Source of the DNA: Stenotrophomonas sp. 57
GTDB taxonomy: Bacteria; Pseudomonadota; Gammaproteobacteria; Xanthomonadales; Xanthomonadaceae
Assembly (NCBI RefSeq): GCF_030291075.1
Contig: NZ_CP127407.1
Coordinates: 4,214,001 to 4,278,000 of the forward strand
DNA: 64,000 bases
Direction of reading: 5' to 3'
Every line of letters begins with the position of its first letter. Within the stretch, counting starts at the first letter, position 1. A model generated the notes under the pieces. It did not search any database. It was not told the DNA's origin and was given only the letters and a program-made list of their open reading frames with translations. This document shows positions 27,582 through 34,430 of the stretch, one piece after another. A program made the translations under genes and the position numbers.

Positions 27582-28439
27582 TTACGGCTTGATGAAGCGC
27601 AAGGTCATGCGATCGCTCTCGCCGATCGCCTGGTACTTCGCATCGTCGGCCTTGTCGTGCTGGTTGGTCGGCGGCAGCGTCCACACGCCGTTCGGGTGGT
27701 CCTTGGTGTCCCGCGGGTTGGCGTTGACCTCGCTGCGCGCATCCAGCTTGAAACCAGCCGCCTCGGCCATCGCGATCACCTGCTGCTGGCCGACATAGCC
27801 GGTGTCATCGTCGTCGGCTACATCGGCCTTGGCGCGATGCTCGACCACGCCCAGCACGCCGCCCGGCTTGAGCACGTTGAAGAAGCCCTGGAACATGCCC
27901 TGCGCCTGGCCGGCCTTGCGCCAGTTGTGCACGTTGCGGAAGGTCAGCACCACGTCGGCTGAATTGGCCGGGCCGAACACCGGCTTGGCCGGATCGTAGG
28001 CGACCACGGCAGTCTTGCCGAACTGCGCCGGTGCGTCGGCGTACTTCTTTTCCAGGCTGTCGCGGCTGCGCTGCTGGTAGTCACGGCCGCGGCCTTCGGG
28101 TACGGCCATCGGGTCGACCACGGCGGCGACGTAATGACCCTTGTCATGCAGCAGCGGCGCCAGGATCTCCGAGTACCAGCCGTTGCCGGGGGTGATCTCG
28201 ATGACGGTCTTTTCCGGAGCCACCCTGAAGAACGACAGCGTCTGCGCCGGATGACGGAAGCCATCGCGCTTGACGTTGTTGGCATCGCGGGTGGGCGCCT
28301 TCACCGCCGCGTCGATGGCCGGCGAGACCTCGATCTTCGCCGGCGCGACCGTGGCCGGTGCGGCGAACGCGGGAACAGCAGCAAGCAGGGCCGAAGCAAG
28401 CAGCAGTCGGCAACCACGCAGGGACGAAGCAGGCATCAT
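27582..28439 (-). CDS. Exported methyltransferase-like protein (COG4798 type)
   Basis: The 285-residue protein starts at ATG 28439 or 28436 (adjacent ATGs, GGAG eight bases upstream). A signal peptide covers about residues 1-26 (LLLASALLAAVPAFA). The rest has the Rossmann-like methyltransferase pattern: IEITPGNGWYSEILAPLL in place of motif I, ADVVLTFRNVHNW, and VLKPGGVLGVVEH. Families like this are annotated as predicted methyltransferases, yet export would place it away from cytosolic SAM. Either the substrate is unusual or the fold has been reused. It is divergent from the aldo/keto reductase. Confidence 0.85.
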   Translation of the reverse strand: MMPASSLRGCRLLLASALLAAVPAFAAPATVAPAKIEVSPAIDAAVKAPTRDANNVKRDGFRHPAQTLSFFRVAPEKTVIEITPGNGWYSEILAPLLHDKGHYVAAVVDPMAVPEGRGRDYQQRSRDSLEKKYADAPAQFGKTAVVAYDPAKPVFGPANSADVVLTFRNVHNWRKAGQAQGMFQGFFNVLKPGGVLGVVEHRAKADVADDDDTGYVGQQQVIAMAEAAGFKLDARSEVNANPRDTKDHPNGVWTLPPTNQHDKADDAKYQAIGESDRMTLRFIKP

Positions 28440-28608
28440 CGGGACGACTCCAGCGGAAGATGCGGCGAGACTAGCAGCCACGGCGTCCCAGGTGTTCACA
28501 AAACGTTAGCGGCGTGCGCGCCGCGGAACACTGTTTTGTGGTCGTCGCCGCAGCACGGTCACACATCGCGTTCTATTCTGGAGCACTTCCCCCAAGGAGT
28601 CCGTGCCC

Positions 28609-29565
28609 ATGACGGCAACCCGCGAACTGGGCCGTTCCGGCCTGCATGTACGTCCGCTCGCCTTCGGTGGCAACGTGTTCGGCTGGAGCGCCGATGAGAA
28701 GGCCAGCTTCGCCCTGCTCGATGCCTTCGTCGACGCCGGTTTCAATCTGGTCGACACCGCCGATGTGTACTCGGCCTGGGTGCCGGGCAACGTCGGCGGC
28801 GAATCGGAAACACTGATCGGCAAGTGGTTCGCGCGCAGCGGCAAGCGTGACAAGGTGGTGCTGGCGACCAAGGTGGCCAAGTGGGCCGAACGCCCCGGCC
28901 TGACCCCGGACAACATCACTGCGGCGGTCGAGGATTCGCTGCGCCGCCTGCAGACCGACGTGATCGATCTGTACCAGGCCCACGAGGATGACGAGTCGAC
29001 GCCGCTGGAAGCCACGCTGGCTGCGTTCGGCCGCCTCATCGAAGCCGGCAAGGTACGTGCGATCGGTGCCTCCAACTACAGCGCCACGCGCCTGGCCGAT
29101 GCGCTGAAGGTGTCCACCGACTACAAGCTGCCGCGTTACGAAACCCTGCAGCCGGAGTACAACCTGTATGACCGCGCCGGCTACGAAAAGGAACTGGAAC
29201 CGCTGGTGCAGCGCGAGCAGATCGGCGTGATCGGCTACTACGCGCTGGCCAGTGGCTTCCTCAGCGGCAAGTACCGCACGCCGGCCGATGCAGCCAAGAG
29301 CCCGGCGCGTGGCGAGAACGTAGTGAAGCGCTATCTGAACCCGCGCGGCCTGCGCATCCTGCAGGCGCTGGATGACGTGGCCAGCAAGCACGGCGCCAGC
29401 GCCGCACAGATCGCGCTGGCGTGGCAGATCGCGCGGCCGTCGATCACTGCGCCGATCGTCAGCGCCACCAGCGTCGAACAGCTGCACGATCTGCTGGCAG
29501 CGGCCAACCTGTCGTTGAGCGTGCAGGACGTCGCGCAGCTGGATGCCGCCAGCGCGGAAGCCTGA
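28609..29565 (+). CDS. Aldo/keto reductase
   Basis: The 318-residue TIM-barrel enzyme reduces carbonyls with NADPH. I start at ATG 28609 because AAGGAG lies nine bases upstream; the GTG at 28603 would be only three bases from it. The catalytic tetrad is visible: Asp in DTADVYS, Tyr in the same motif, Lys in ATKVAKW and His in LYQAHEDD. The SVDQAxxN-type C-terminal cofactor loop is present (SATSVEQLHDLLAAA). It belongs to the YajO/Tas-like group; the physiological substrate is unknown. A SMAG repeat starts four bases after the stop. Confidence 0.93.
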   Translation: MTATRELGRSGLHVRPLAFGGNVFGWSADEKASFALLDAFVDAGFNLVDTADVYSAWVPGNVGGESETLIGKWFARSGKRDKVVLATKVAKWAERPGLTPDNITAAVEDSLRRLQTDVIDLYQAHEDDESTPLEATLAAFGRLIEAGKVRAIGASNYSATRLADALKVSTDYKLPRYETLQPEYNLYDRAGYEKELEPLVQREQIGVIGYYALASGFLSGKYRTPADAAKSPARGENVVKRYLNPRGLRILQALDDVASKHGASAAQIALAWQIARPSITAPIVSATSVEQLHDLLAAANLSLSVQDVAQLDAASAEA

Positions 29566-29568
29566 GTT

Positions 29569-29591
29569 GTAGTGCCGGCCGCTGGCCGGCA
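29569..29591 (+). repeat. SMAG repeat
   Basis: GTAGTGCCGGCC-GCT-GGCCGGCA is a clean palindrome directly after the aldo/keto reductase stop. It opens the 1.07-kb non-coding stretch 29566-30636. Confidence 0.8.
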
Positions 29592-29614
29592 TTGCACAAC
29601 AGCGAAGAAAATAA

Positions 29615-29643
29615 TTGAACAAAATGGTTGCGCGCGACTAAAT
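29615..29643 (+). promoter_or_regulatory. Sigma-70-like promoter in an AT-rich patch
   Basis: TTGAAC (29615-29620) and CTAAAT (29638-29643) are 17 bases apart, in a patch clearly richer in A and T than its surroundings. It would start a transcript of about 230 bases ending at the terminator at 29840-29877. Confidence 0.5.
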
Positions 29644-29691
29644 CGTGGTTTATCGTGCGCACCTCGTTTCAACGACCACTGGAAAACTCCC

Positions 29692-29793
29692 TTGAACGCG
29701 CATTCCGTCGCCACCGCCAAACTACTGCCATGCCTGCGCATGGACGTGCTGGCGCGCGCGTTCGGCAAGGAAGACCAGCTGACAACGGCCTGA
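29692..29793 (+). CDS. Possible small protein (33 residues, TTG start)
   Basis: From TTG 29692 the frame reads NAHSVATAKLLPCLR then MDVLARAFGKEDQLTTA and stops at 29793. Third codon positions are mostly G or C, as in real genes here. GGAAA lies ahead of the TTG but is weak. An internal ATG would give 17 residues. It lies between the promoter at 29615 and the hairpins at 29805-29877, so it could be a leader peptide or a short protein; it may also be part of a small RNA. No known family was recognised. Confidence 0.3.
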   Translation: MNAHSVATAKLLPCLRMDVLARAFGKEDQLTTA

Positions 29794-29804
29794 TACCCGT
29801 CCTG

Positions 29805-29877
29805 CGGAGATCGGCCACCCCGATCTCCGAGGCCTGACGACGCCCTCGGAACGCACGTCCCGGGGGCGTTTTCGTTT
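29805..29877 (+). terminator. Double hairpin ending in a rho-independent terminator
   Basis: The first hairpin is a perfect 10-bp stem, CGGAGATCGG with CCGATCTCCG (29805-29829). The second pairs ACGCCCTCGG with CCGGGGGCGT (29840-29869) and is followed by TTTTCGTTT. The pair could act as an attenuator or simply end a small transcript. Confidence 0.7.
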
Positions 29878-29898
29878 GCGTCGGCACAAGGACCCACG

Positions 29899-29940
29899 AT
29901 GCCAGAACTGCACCCCGCGCGGCAACCCGCCGCTCACTGA
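29899..29940 (+). CDS. Possible 13-residue leader peptide
   Basis: An ATG six bases after AAGGA opens MPELHPARQPAAH and a TGA. The ribosome site is better than most nearby, but so short a frame can arise by chance. It lies between the terminator and the structured RNA region. Confidence 0.2.
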   Translation: MPELHPARQPAAH

Positions 29941-29980
29941 CCCAGGTTTCTTCGCCGCACCGGAGGATTTTCTCCGCGTG

Positions 29981-30111
29981 CATGGCAACGCCTGGACATT
30001 ATCTGCATCGCACCCAAACATTATCGCTCGCCGATAATGTCGGTGGCCTGCACCTTCGATTCTCCAACGGTCCCGTTTCCACCACGGGCTGGTGCGCGCG
30101 GCGTTGCCGTG
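29981..30111 (+). ncRNA. Multi-branched structured RNA candidate
   Basis: The ends pair over 12 bp: CATGGCAACGCC (29981-29992) with GGCGTTGCCGTG (30100-30111), one G-U. Inside lies a second helix, CGCACC (30009-30014) with GGTGCG (30091-30096). This encloses a 9-bp hairpin ACATTATCG-CTCGC-CGATAATGT (30018-30040), a small GGTG/CACC hairpin (30042-30054), a TTCGATT sequence identical to the T-loops downstream, and CCCGT/ACGGG (30072-30088). The helices nest without conflict. This was found by eye; no covariation was tested. Confidence 0.5.
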
Positions 30112-30150
30112 GCGTATGCCGGAGGTCGCGGACATGCCATCGCCTGGATC

Positions 30151-30208
30151 GCCTGCTGGAGGCAGGCACCGGTTCGCCGGTACGCGGTTCGATTCCGCGC
30201 GGTCCCCA
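30151..30208 (+). ncRNA. Class II tRNA-like 3' half (Ser-GGA-like)
   Basis: In order: an anticodon-type arm GCCTG-CTGGAGG-CAGGC with U33 and anticodon GGA (Ser); an extra arm ACCGG-TTCG-CCGGT typical of class II tRNAs; a T-arm CGCGG-TTCGATT-CCGCG; then CGGTCC and CCA (30206-30208). No matching acceptor 5' strand or clear D-arm is found upstream. It is thus a tRNA mimic or a decayed tRNA-Ser fragment. The CCA abuts the next tRNA-like module. Confidence 0.55.
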
Positions 30209-30283
30209 ACTGGATAGCTCAGCTTGGTCAGAGCAACGGATCCGTAATCCGTCTGTCGTGGGTTCGATTCCCACTCCAAACCA
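30209..30283 (+). ncRNA. tRNA-like module (Thr-CGT-like, broken acceptor stem)
   Basis: It has a D-arm GCTC-AGCTTGGTCA-GAGC, an anticodon arm ACGGA-TCCGTAA-TCCGT, a variable loop CTGTC, a T-arm GTGGG-TTCGATT-CCCAC, then TCCAAA and CCA (30281-30283). The 5' strand preceding the D-arm (ACTGGATA) pairs over only four bases (TGGA/TCCA). Position 33 is C rather than the universal U, and acceptor geometry is two pairs short. It would be scored as tRNA-Thr if functional. It may be a tRNA mimic of the Y-RNA kind or a pseudogene. Confidence 0.55.
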
Positions 30284-30568
30284 CATGACCTGTCACGTCA
30301 TGACTTGAAGCAACACCCGGGGCGCAAGCCCCAGCGGCCATCGTCGCCGGTCCTGCGAACGCCTTCGGGCGTTACAGGAAGGGCAACGGACCGCACGCCG
30401 GGCCTCGGCCTGTCACCACTACCTGCCCCACGCTGTGCCGGCGCTGTCTGCCTGCAGCGATGGCCGCAAGGGTGATGACGCACCGCAGGCTCCGCGCGTG
30501 GACCGTCCACCGATGGCCGCCCTCTTCCGCCGGCTGCGCGTGGTGTGCAACCGGCCTTGCCACGACCT
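30284..30568 (+). other. Structured 5' region between tRNA-like modules and the slipin gene
   Basis: Hairpins seen are CATGAC/GTCATG (30284-30302), GGGGC-GCAA-GCCCC (30319-30332) and AACGCC-TTCG-GGCGTT (30358-30373), the last extended by TCCTG/CAGGA. Two of these use stable tetraloops. From 30394 to 30568 I see no ORF, repeat or promoter I can support. Confidence 0.45.
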
Positions 30569-30608
30569 GTTCGACCCGGGTCATGGAATTCATTCCATCG
30601 GGTCGAAC
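30569..30608. promoter_or_regulatory. Long inverted repeat just before the slipin ribosome site
   Basis: GTTCGACCCG plus ATGGAAT (30569-30578, 30583-30589) mirrors ATTCCAT plus CGGGTCGAAC (30592-30608), with a four-base bulge GGTC on the left side. The 16-bp core ATGGAATTCATTCCAT is a perfect palindrome. It ends 15 bases before AAGGAG. It could be an operator or an mRNA structure. Confidence 0.5.
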
Positions 30609-30636
30609 CACCAGAGCCATACAAGGAGAGACTCCC

Positions 30637-31761
30637 ATGTTCTGGACCATCAAGGTCGTGATCGGCGACGGCGAGCGCGGCCTGGTGTATCGCAACCGTC
30701 GTTTCCAGCAGATCCTGCTGCCGGGTGTGCACCGCCTGTCGCTGCTCGGCGGCCGCCCGCACGTGGACATCCACAACGCATCGAAGGGCGCGGCCTACAC
30801 CGGCAGCGACCAGGACAGCCTGATCGAAGCGCTGGGCGCGACGCTGGACACGCACTTCGTGCTGGCCAACGTCGGCGCCGGCGAGGTCGGCCTGCTGCTG
30901 CGCAACGGCCGCATCGACGAGGTGCTGCCGCCGGGCAGCCGCCGTCTGTACTGGCGTGGTTCGGTCGACACCCAGGTGCGCGTGCTGGCACTGGGTGACG
31001 AGCCGTACGTGCCGGTGGACGTGCAGCAGCGCCTGGGCCAGCTGGGCGTGCTGCCGCGTGTGGCGGTGATCAGCACCGTGCCGAGCGATTCGGTCGGCCT
31101 GCTGTTCATCGACGGTACGCTGCGGCAGACGCTGGATGCCGGTCTGCACGCGTTCTGGAACTTCAACGGCAACGTGTCGGTGGAGCGTGTGGAGCTGCGT
31201 GCACGGTCTCTGGACGTGTCCGGCCAGGAACTGCTGAGCCGCGACAAGGTGACCCTGCGGGTGAACCTGGCCGCGACCGTGCAGGTGGTCGACCCGGTGC
31301 GTGCACACCGCACGCTCAGCAATGCCGATGAGTTCATCTATCGGCAGCTGCAGTTCGGCCTGCGCCAGGCGATCGCCGCTCGCAGCCTGGACGAACTGCT
31401 GGGTGACAAGGCCGCGCTGGACGGCGAGATTGCCGCCCACGTGCAGGGCGCGATCGAGGGCCACGGTGTAAGCCTGCTCGGCGTCGGCATCAAGGACGTG
31501 ATCCTGCCGGGCGAGATGAAGGAGATCCTCAACGGCGTGGTGCTGGCCGAGAAGCAGGCCCAGGCCAGCGTGATCCGTCGCCGCGAGGAGGCCAACGCAA
31601 CGCGTTCGCAGCTCAACACCGCAAAGCTGATCGAGGACAACCCGGTGCTGATGCGCTTGAAGGAGCTGGAGGCGCTGGAGAAGGTCACCGAGAAGATCGA
31701 CAAGCTCACCGTGTTCGGCGGCCTGGATGGCGTGCTGAAGCAGCTGGTGACGATCAGGTAG
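30637..31761 (+). CDS. Slipin/SPFH-domain protein lacking a membrane helix
   Basis: The 374-residue protein starts at ATG 30637, eight bases after AAGGAG. The C-terminal two thirds (about 180-374) are an SPFH/band-7 domain of the slipin type (VSVERVELRARSLDVSGQELLSRDKVTLRVNL; LDELLGDKAALDGEIAAHV), followed by a helical tail. Unlike classical slipins there is no N-terminal membrane helix. Instead a motif G-x-x-G-L-x-x-x-x-x-x-x-x-x-L-x-x-G occurs three times (about 12-34, 83-105, 151-173). Slipins scaffold membrane or protein assemblies. The rtcB gene follows after 56 bases, and pairing of SPFH proteins with RtcB is seen in other bacteria. Confidence 0.92.
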   Translation: MFWTIKVVIGDGERGLVYRNRRFQQILLPGVHRLSLLGGRPHVDIHNASKGAAYTGSDQDSLIEALGATLDTHFVLANVGAGEVGLLLRNGRIDEVLPPGSRRLYWRGSVDTQVRVLALGDEPYVPVDVQQRLGQLGVLPRVAVISTVPSDSVGLLFIDGTLRQTLDAGLHAFWNFNGNVSVERVELRARSLDVSGQELLSRDKVTLRVNLAATVQVVDPVRAHRTLSNADEFIYRQLQFGLRQAIAARSLDELLGDKAALDGEIAAHVQGAIEGHGVSLLGVGIKDVILPGEMKEILNGVVLAEKQAQASVIRRREEANATRSQLNTAKLIEDNPVLMRLKELEALEKVTEKIDKLTVFGGLDGVLKQLVTIR

Positions 31762-31768
31762 GGGGTAG

Positions 31769-31792
31769 CGGCGGCGCAGGGACGCGCCGCCG
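31769..31792 (+). other. Intercistronic hairpin between slipin and rtcB
   Basis: CGGCGGCGC pairs with GCGCCGCCG over an AGGGAC loop. It is preceded by GTAG, so it may be a diverged SMAG copy. It could tune relative expression of the two genes. Confidence 0.5.
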
Positions 31793-31817
31793 GCCCATCA
31801 AGGACTTCAACAAGACA

Positions 31818-33038
<1,221 letters not shown>

Positions 33039-33041
33039 TGG

Positions 33042-33071
33042 AACGGTGCCGGCCAAGGCCGGCACCCACCG
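33042..33071. repeat. SMAG-like palindrome between convergent genes
   Basis: GGTGCCGGCC-AA-GGCCGGCACC is followed by CACC; on the minus strand it begins GTGGG. It separates rtcB from the convergent reductase gene and may serve as a terminator. Confidence 0.65.
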
Positions 33072-33079
33072 GAACACGT

Positions 33080-33985
33080 TCAGCGCGCCACGCTGTCTTC
33101 AGTCACCAGCGCGTGGTGCACGCCGATGCCCGCACGCACGCCCTCGGCAGCAGCCAGGGTGATGTTGCCAACCGTGGTTGCATCGCCGGCGGCGTACACG
33201 TTCGGCAGCGAGGTCTGCTTCATCGCATCGACCTCGATCAGCACGCCCAGCGGGCTTTCCACCAGGGTGCAGCCCAGCTGCTGCACCAGCGGCGTCGCCA
33301 TCGTCTGCGTGGCCGGCACGAACAGCGCGCGTTGCGCGATGCGGCGGCCATCAGCCAACTCCACTTCCAGCCAGGTCGGCTGTTCGCCCTGCACGCCCAC
33401 CACCGGCGCGGTCTCGATCTGCACGCCGCGCTGCTGCATGGCGGCCCGCTCCTCATCGGTGATCGGCAGGCCCTGGCTGAAGAAGGTGACATTTCCCCAA
33501 TCGGCGAACAGCGGCGCCTTGCTGGCGGACATCGGGTGCCCACCAAGCAGACCGATTGCGCCACCACCCACTTCGTAGCCATGGCAGTAGGGACAATGCA
33601 GCACGGTGTTGCCCCAGCGCTCGGCCAGCCCCGGCAGCTCCGGCAGCTGGTCGGTGATACCACTGGCCAGCAGCAGCTTGCGAGCAGCCAGCACCTGGCC
33701 GTCAGCGGTGTGCACTTCGACGCCTGCGGCGGTGGCGGATGCCTGCACGGCCTCGGCGTGCAGCCAGCGTACGCTGGGGTAGTCCAGCAGTTGCTGGCGC
33801 GCGGTCTTCAGCAGCTCGGCGCCACTGGTGCCATCCAGCCCCAGCACGCCATGCGAATGGCTGGCGAAGCGGTTGCGCGGCAATCCGGCGTCGATGACCG
33901 TGACCGGGCGGCGGGCACGGGCCAGGATCAGTCCGGCGGCGATGCCGGCATAGCTGCCGCCGACGATGAGCACATCAGGATTCAT
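33080..33985 (-). CDS. Thioredoxin-reductase-like flavoprotein
   Basis: The 301-residue protein starts at ATG 33985. It has the FAD motif VGGSYAGIAAG, the redox pair Cys131-x-x-Cys134 (HCPYCHGYE) and the C-terminal AAGDATT FAD motif. The pyridine nucleotide loop (GLLGGHPMSA) departs from the usual GGGxSA, so NADPH use may be weak or altered. Its start overlaps the upstream Rrf2 gene by 11 bases, so both are cotranslated and the enzyme is probably controlled by that regulator. Role: likely reduction of a thiol partner or redox stress defence. Confidence 0.92.
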   Translation of the reverse strand: MNPDVLIVGGSYAGIAAGLILARARRPVTVIDAGLPRNRFASHSHGVLGLDGTSGAELLKTARQQLLDYPSVRWLHAEAVQASATAAGVEVHTADGQVLAARKLLLASGITDQLPELPGLAERWGNTVLHCPYCHGYEVGGGAIGLLGGHPMSASKAPLFADWGNVTFFSQGLPITDEERAAMQQRGVQIETAPVVGVQGEQPTWLEVELADGRRIAQRALFVPATQTMATPLVQQLGCTLVESPLGVLIEVDAMKQTSLPNVYAAGDATTVGNITLAAAEGVRAGIGVHHALVTEDSVAR

Positions 33986-34430
33986 GGTGACCTTCCAGCG
34001 AGCGGTGATGGGCGAGATGACGGGCGAAGTCGGCGCCGAGTTGATCCAGCGTGGTCGCCTGCAGGCGCGCTTCCAGCACCCGCTGCGCCTCGCGCGCGCC
34101 CTCCAGCAGGGCGTTGTTGACCAGCTGCTGGATGGGGCAGCCCTGGCCGGCATTCCGCGTGCCGACCTGCACCAGCGCAGGCGCCCCGACGGCCAGATAG
34201 ATGTCGTGCAGGGTGATCGTGGCGGCATCGCGTGCCAGCTGGCTGCCACCGCCATGGCCACGCGTGCTGTTCACCAACCCGGCCTTGTGCATCTGCGCCA
34301 GCAGGCGGCGGATCACCACCGGATGGGTCGGCAGGCACGCGGCCAGCTGTTCGGAGGTGCGCGGGCCCGGCTGGCCAACCAGGTGGGCCATCACGTGCAG
34401 CGCATCGGAGAGGGGGTTCGCTGATTTCAT
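33975..34430 (-). CDS. Rrf2-family transcriptional regulator
   Basis: The 151-residue winged-helix protein has the Rrf2 N-terminus (LSDALHVMAHL), recognition region (THPVVIRRLLAQMHKAGLVNSTRGHGGGSQLARD) and LHDIYLAVG. The three clustered Cys that bind an Fe-S cluster in IscR/NsrR are missing; only Cys32 and Cys98 are present, as in the YwnA-like thiol-sensing branch. A near-perfect inverted repeat overlaps its start codon, so autoregulation is likely. It leads a two-gene operon with the flavoprotein. Confidence 0.92.
   Translation of the reverse strand: MKSANPLSDALHVMAHLVGQPGPRTSEQLAACLPTHPVVIRRLLAQMHKAGLVNSTRGHGGGSQLARDAATITLHDIYLAVGAPALVQVGTRNAGQGCPIQQLVNNALLEGAREAQRVLEARLQATTLDQLGADFARHLAHHRSLEGHHES

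Follow-up and report, generated by a model that had tools for sequence, protein, structure and literature searches.

Twin tRNA-like modules with a replaceable anticodon loop ahead of slipin and rtcB in Stenotrophomonas: a candidate RNA component of an SPFH/RtcB repair system

Ahead of the slipin and rtcB genes of a Stenotrophomonas genome lie two tRNA-like modules that form a conserved, structured pair with tight spacing, co-occur with slipin and, in the second module, carry an anticodon loop that is replaced between close relatives. The reading tentatively preferred here, with a probability of roughly 0.4, is that the two modules are fused in one structured non-coding RNA, which would be the RNA component of an SPFH/RtcB repair system and would act as bait for nucleases. 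The window (the whole stretch of DNA analysed, 64,000 nt) belongs to a Stenotrophomonas-like genome of one contig (4,440,463 bases), and the nearest named relatives found are S. maltophilia. Slipin and rtcB in the window are an operon-like pair. The features are as follows.

30018..30040, no strand assigned: inverted repeat ACATTATCG-(5 nt)-CGATAATGT, 51 nt ahead of the 5' leader element
30091..30121, + strand: 31-nt leader element, a predicted hairpin with variable loop bases (fold and cross-locus comparison)
30146..30208, + strand: module A, tRNA-like (sequence and alignment with homologous first modules)
30146-30150/30201-30205, + strand: module A acceptor, 5 bp with one G-U, read by eye
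30151-30167, + strand: module A D-arm homologue
30168-30181, + strand: module A UUCG-capped arm, in the place of the anticodon arm
30183-30199, + strand: module A T-arm, followed by six bases and CCA at 30206-30208, read in the sequence
30211..30278, + strand: module B, tRNA-like (ARAGORN, Rfam, covariation, RNAalifold)
30211-30214/30275-30278, + strand: module B acceptor, 4 bp
30217-30234, + strand: module B D-arm
30236-30252, + strand: module B anticodon arm
30241..30247, + strand: module B variable anticodon loop TCCGTAA, with anticodon CGT at 30243-30245 and C33
30258-30274, + strand: module B T-arm, followed by six bases and CCA at 30281-30283, read in the sequence
30279..30636, + strand: remainder of the leader before slipin, including a GCAA-capped hairpin near 30318-30334
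30637..31761, + strand: slipin, an SPFH/Band-7 protein (PF01145, E 1.3e-33)
31818..33038, + strand: rtcB, RNA ligase (PF01139, E 9.3e-126)

The original prediction had placed two tRNA-like modules here, and their T-arms, six-base gaps and CCA sequences are all present, as are the CGT anticodon of the second and the C at its position 33. It had also held that neither module has a full acceptor stem; this stands, but short ones exist (5 bp in A, or 6 bp if G30151 pairs there instead of in the next arm, and 4 bp in B). The CCA ends are not conserved within Stenotrophomonas.

The element follows slipin closely. The window and seven congeners are nearly identical over the stretch that spans the leader element and both modules, and they diverge in the later intergenic sequence. 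The full element is present (E below 1e-80) in 31 of 91 Stenotrophomonas genomes, that of the window included, and in all 31 a slipin ORF lies directly downstream. Among 24 congeners, the seven with a full-length slipin are the same seven that carry the element; neither is found in the remaining 17. The weaker matches obtained within the genus mostly cover query positions 130-187 and appear to be host tRNA genes, given that module B and the host tRNA-Thr(CGT) share 79% identity over 58 nt. Slipin itself is matched at E 1e-60 or better in 79 of 247 family, 21 of 369 class and 23 of 398 phylum genomes, in samples that overlap. At E 1e-20 no slipin match was obtained from phage records; plasmid records gave nine at E 1e-40, seven of them on plasmids larger than 1 Mb. 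Of the 71 named loci whose flank is long enough, 43 have rtcB downstream of slipin on the same strand within the flank examined, and six of the other 28 have it upstream, again on the slipin strand. The tRNA-like element tracks slipin more closely than rtcB. Thus the earlier proposal of a tRNA-mimic RNA of the RtcB system is retained as a conserved mimic tied to an RNA-repair operon, with the emphasis shifted from rtcB to slipin.

The surrounding genes vary. In Citrobacter, rtcR, slipin and the RNA-repair nucleotidyltransferase RlaP occur together, an RNA-repair context; rtcR adjoins there and is not annotated beside the slipin-RlaP locus of E. coli PD23. Nine loci (L127, L146, L155, L158, L160, L162, L173, L174, L182) carry ORFs of about 250-310 codons between slipin and rtcB, which by eye fall into three sequence types. 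Downstream of slipin, an AAA ATPase (L177:5189-6304) and an Hsp70-like protein (L188:2738-4276) were seen in loci with no rtcB in the flank examined. No Ro/TROVE (rsr) protein was found among the proteins scanned, namely five neighbouring proteins of the window and a partial sample from relatives.

Conservation of the arms next to rtcB in relatives, whose absence would have told against the original prediction, is borne out by two methods. A custom parser that recognises the T-arm, anticodon arm and D-arm in the 900 nt ahead of slipin found a tRNA-like module in 162 of 182 loci; the control figures are 5 of 182 for the reverse complements and 1 of 182 for stretches from the slipin ORF. The score threshold of the parser was set by us and its score favours pairing, the 182 loci count some species twice (two collections were used), and 4 of the 20 misses have less than 400 nt of upstream sequence. 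Within 1400 nt, ARAGORN calls one or more tRNA-like genes on the strand of slipin in 66 of 83 loci and never on the opposite one; a few of these matches sit far upstream of slipin, where they may be ordinary tRNA genes. It finds nothing in 17 of the 83, including several Acidovorax-like and both enterobacterial loci. Twelve of 17 further loci, one of them repeating a genome used before, also have an ARAGORN match, and some of these loci come from another class of the phylum, presumably Alphaproteobacteria. Two loci are labelled as a cyanobacterium (L179) and a Bryobacterales member (L192); as both are metagenome bins, misbinning is possible.

The twin design recurs as well. A second T-arm lies within 30 nt upstream of 111 of 145 distinct last modules; for 104 of these 111 the gap between it and the module B acceptor measures 8-14 nt, with 11 the commonest value (51 cases). 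Sequence comparison argues that the twin modules are a conserved RNA pair and not a product of decay. At four loci (L069, L159, L188, L195), runs of further tRNA genes adjoin the element, recalling tRNA arrays (13 ARAGORN calls at L069).

Module B is the better defined of the two. ARAGORN calls it tRNA-Thr(CGT) at 30208-30282, and the Rfam tRNA model matches 30211-30278 with 48.1 bits (gathering score 29). In 106 modules, which are the 132 passing a filter minus near-identical ones, the inner four acceptor pairs form in 99, 101, 103 and 104 cases, whereas the outer three form in 25, 37 and 51, near chance. In a MAFFT alignment of 49 modules (that of the window and 48 of the 106), 91.3% of cells are paired against 68.1% after shuffling. 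This percentage leans upwards, since the parser that selected the rows rewards pairing, but such a selection does not account for the diversity of pair types. Covariation in the arms, which the original prediction had proposed as a check, is present: 17 of 21 pairs have substitutions on both sides with pairing maintained, doubly changed cells that still pair number 238 against 65.6 in shuffled alignments, and the covariation score is 0.610 against 0.155, with every slid control far lower. RNAalifold, given no structure, returns the cloverleaf with its 4-bp acceptor. These alignments indicate that selection has kept the module B fold, and argue against decay. The energy of a single-sequence fold of 30070-30345 is, against this, unremarkable, its stability not exceeding that of shuffles (z -0.15).

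Module A had been read as the 3' half of a class II tRNA with a GGA anticodon and a UUCG extra arm, and this assignment does not survive alignment with homologous first modules (14 rows, from Xanthomonas and other family members). The GGA loop (30156-30162) aligns with their D-loop and the UUCG arm with their anticodon arm, so module A in the window is probably without an anticodon. The class II reading is also contradicted within 31 loci, where the 3' part of the 7-nt loop varies and the GCCTG/CAGGC stem stays. RNAalifold on the 14 rows recovers the T-arm and parts of the middle arm but misses the D-arm and acceptor, and D-arm homology therefore rests on alignment and position. An acceptor helix of at least 6 bp is found in 66 of 113 first modules against 7 of 113 with shuffled 5' sequence, in a search set for longer modules that misses the Stenotrophomonas module A acceptor. 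ARAGORN makes no call for module A, and a match to Rfam mascRNA is sub-threshold (25.5 bits, gathering score 42.5); mascRNA identity was rejected and the match taken as a generic tRNA-like signal.

In contrast to the fold, the anticodon of module B is not stable. The 125 modules whose anticodon stem has 5 bp carry 39 different anticodons; 78 of these modules have U33 and 24 have A34, against 61/61 and 3/61 host tRNAs (ARAGORN genes). At the same locus in the 31 Stenotrophomonas genomes the anticodon is CTG (19), CGT (10), CCT (1) or GTG (1), with all ten anticodon-stem bases unchanged. The Xanthomonas set of 17 loci was reduced to 14 by leaving out L042 (identical to L041 here), L035 (flank) and L246 (partial slipin match), and to 12 by dropping two with a shorter loop; these 12 have seven anticodons, TGT (5), TCT (2), TCA, TCC, CCT, CGT and CTT. 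Exact matches to a host tRNA loop occur in 22 of the 125 modules against 11.4 expected (P 0.0005), ten of the 22 being Met(CAT); among 90 distinct loops, nine match against 6.4 expected (P 0.16). Host-like loops in module B do not appear clearly favoured.

Where two Stenotrophomonas genomes have slipins that are at least 97% identical, 34% of the cells at positions 34-36 differ, compared with 10% for fourfold sites of slipin and none in the stem; Xanthomonas at the same identity (three pairs) gives 33%, 8% and 3%. Such pairwise values are not independent of each other. In Xanthomonas the excess of loop change over fourfold sites is less than 2-fold in two of three slipin-identity bands. On a slipin tree of Stenotrophomonas, positions 34-36 take 19 steps (P 0.00035 against three random fourfold sites, 0.015 against intergenic sites), and in Xanthomonas they take eight (P 0.044 and 0.037, marginal), in tests that have few independent events, assume the slipin tree and would be inflated by recombination of whole loop alleles. 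In Stenotrophomonas the loop is mostly exchanged as one of two blocks, TCCGTAA or TCCTGAT, and D-loop types occur in new combinations with loop types (e.g., L008 and L271). Together these patterns indicate recombination, and the P values are therefore indicative only.

Burroughs and Aravind, in NAR in 2016, are said to have described SPFH/Band-7 RNA-repair modules with a cognate "novel tRNA-like molecule". The window element resembles the RNA attributed to them, having a tRNA-like fold and a Band-7 gene as its immediate neighbour among RNA-repair genes, and would be a variant of that SPFH/Band-7-associated RNA. In the literature searched, which included passages of PMC7824862 and PMC6514570 and did not include that 2016 article, no description was found of the twin design, the 4-bp acceptor or the anticodon replacement. 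PMC7790460 describes the Y RNAs YrlA and YrlB of rsr-yrl-rtcBA operons, which likewise place an RNA with a tRNA-like domain in an rtcB operon; Salmonella YrlA is suggested there to be a competitive inhibitor of an anticodon nuclease. Unlike them, the window element is partnered with slipin, has tandem modules and varies its anticodon. Rfam Y RNA has no match in 28000-34000, where only tRNA and the sub-threshold mascRNA appear up to E 1. Anabaena offers a further parallel: mutation of trcR derepresses a 26-tRNA operon together with rtcB and a slipin gene, and chloramphenicol induces them, which places all three under one repressor, TrcR, and under translation stress (PMC10272220). Two differences stand out: the 26 tRNA genes lie on a megaplasmid and are not a two-module leader, and rtcB (all3526) and slipin (alr0740) are listed as separate loci (PMC10272220).

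From the Anabaena and YrlA parallels, the substrate chemistry of RtcB and the loop replacement comes the model in which the variable loop of module B is, by analogy, probably a bait or sensor for anticodon-loop ribonucleases. The element would be carried in the leader of the slipin-rtcB operon as the RNA part of the SPFH/RtcB repair system; we infer its transcription with the operon, its cleavage, its sealing and a role at the membrane. Module A would fold as a cloverleaf with its anticodon arm capped by a tetraloop. Module B, whose 4-bp acceptor should exclude it from translation, would yet present a 7-nt anticodon loop and could serve as bait for toxins, contact-delivered effectors and defence nucleases that cut such loops. 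Cutting would leave 2',3'-cyclic phosphate and 5'-OH ends for RtcB to seal, and slipin might gather RNA and ligase, perhaps at the membrane. Because the bait would form part of the leader of the very operon that encodes the repair proteins, its cleavage and repair might in addition signal damage and tune operon expression. A shifting set of nuclease threats would account for a loop that is swapped on a scaffold that is kept. The fullest version is doubtful: that the anticodon of module B is swapped under diversifying nuclease pressure, is cut instead of real tRNAs and is resealed by the RtcB encoded downstream, so that the operon senses, absorbs and repairs an attack in one transcript. In animals RtcB splices XBP1 mRNA; were loops cut in both modules, it might process the leader in a similar way. 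A conserved RNA partner whose anticodon changes between sister species would link RNA repair to anticodon-nuclease warfare, and would bear on what bacterial RtcB naturally seals and on what SPFH proteins do in RNA repair.

A second reading accounts for the data nearly as well as bait or sensor, and is a serious possibility though short of an even chance. Y RNA bound by Ro provides its model: the twin module would be a structural platform or cofactor for slipin and/or RtcB, and the module B loop would contact nothing specific and drift or recombine. The strong conservation of the scaffold and distinct loops that are not clearly host-like are consistent with this. So is module A, whose middle arm has a 4-nt loop in 59 of 109 cases (the UUCG arm in the window), by a finder that slightly favours such loops; with a short capped arm so often replacing the anticodon loop, an anticodon is evidently not needed there. 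A drifting loop should, however, neither change faster than fourfold sites, as positions 34-36 do in Stenotrophomonas and marginally in Xanthomonas, nor be restricted in its bases, and A37 is found in 106 of the 125 modules, U36 in 74 and C36 in four.

It is also conceivable, if unlikely, that the leader is a regulator, in which slipin, RtcB or a tRNA-binding factor binds the tRNA-like leader and controls expression of its own mRNA. The thrS leader is a tRNA-like operator in an mRNA, with one anticodon-like loop for one synthetase. The window element resembles it in having a tRNA-like structure in an mRNA leader and differs in that its loop is replaced between species. Regulation would fit with modules that share the strand of slipin and keep a similar distance to it (module B to slipin, median 368 nt, IQR 343-407), and with the conserved leader element and inverted repeat upstream. 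The 31-nt leader element is found with at most five mismatches in 90 of 178 loci, and with none in 18, and the variants listed differ mainly in two or three loop bases. For the inverted repeat, a putative operator or hairpin, 53 of 83 distinct family loci have arms of 8-11 bp, against 0 of 83 after one shuffle each; 22 of the 24 inspected (every second locus) sit 50-52 nt ahead of the leader element, so that the position is largely kept, and the sequence differs between genera. Regulation leaves the anticodon replacement unexplained, and in ten tests the variable loop paired no more with the rest of the leader than expected by chance.

A sigma-70 consensus scan of 29570-30640 in the window found no promoter. 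A sigma-54 pattern ahead of the modules was found in 3 of 182 loci against 1 of 182 on the reverse strand, a weak negative, because the pattern is strict and misses even enterobacterial sites visible by eye. In E. coli and Citrobacter, what we take by eye to be a sigma-54-promoter-like sequence lies just ahead of the leader, and the element would therefore fall inside the transcript. The E. coli slipin leader region, found in 1620 of 5426 genomes at 80% cover or more, keeps a T-arm-like hairpin and has no recognisable cloverleaf. The enterobacterial slipin-RlaP loci L199, L200 and L202 share this pattern, with a strongly diverged leader that keeps the hairpin behind the sigma-54-like sequence.

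That the modules are ordinary, slightly divergent tRNA genes used in translation is very improbable, even though ARAGORN and Rfam accept module B as a tRNA. A standard tRNA has seven acceptor pairs; module B has four, its outer three pairs being near chance, which makes charging and decoding unlikely. Neither a 7-bp acceptor nor U33 together with a stable anticodon at the orthologous locus is found, A34 is frequent, the anticodon switches at one locus, and the host genome already has Thr(CGT), Gln(CTG) and Ser(GGA) tRNA genes. Decayed tRNA genes, the alternative offered in the original prediction, would account for the incomplete acceptor stems and are scarcely credible, as the module B anticodon stem is unchanged in 31 Stenotrophomonas genomes in which slipin fourfold sites differ by 10-19% on average across three identity bands, and stems show compensatory changes between families.

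The element also matters for annotation, as ARAGORN labels many such modules as ordinary tRNA genes, including odd ones for Phe(AAA), Thr(AGT) and a stop anticodon. Because tRNA-finding software passes module B as tRNA-Thr(CGT), it may be included among the genes in tRNA inventories of such genomes, as it is in the host listing of 65 matches. Some relatives have a longer acceptor, with seven contiguous pairs in, for instance, L060, L153 and L192.
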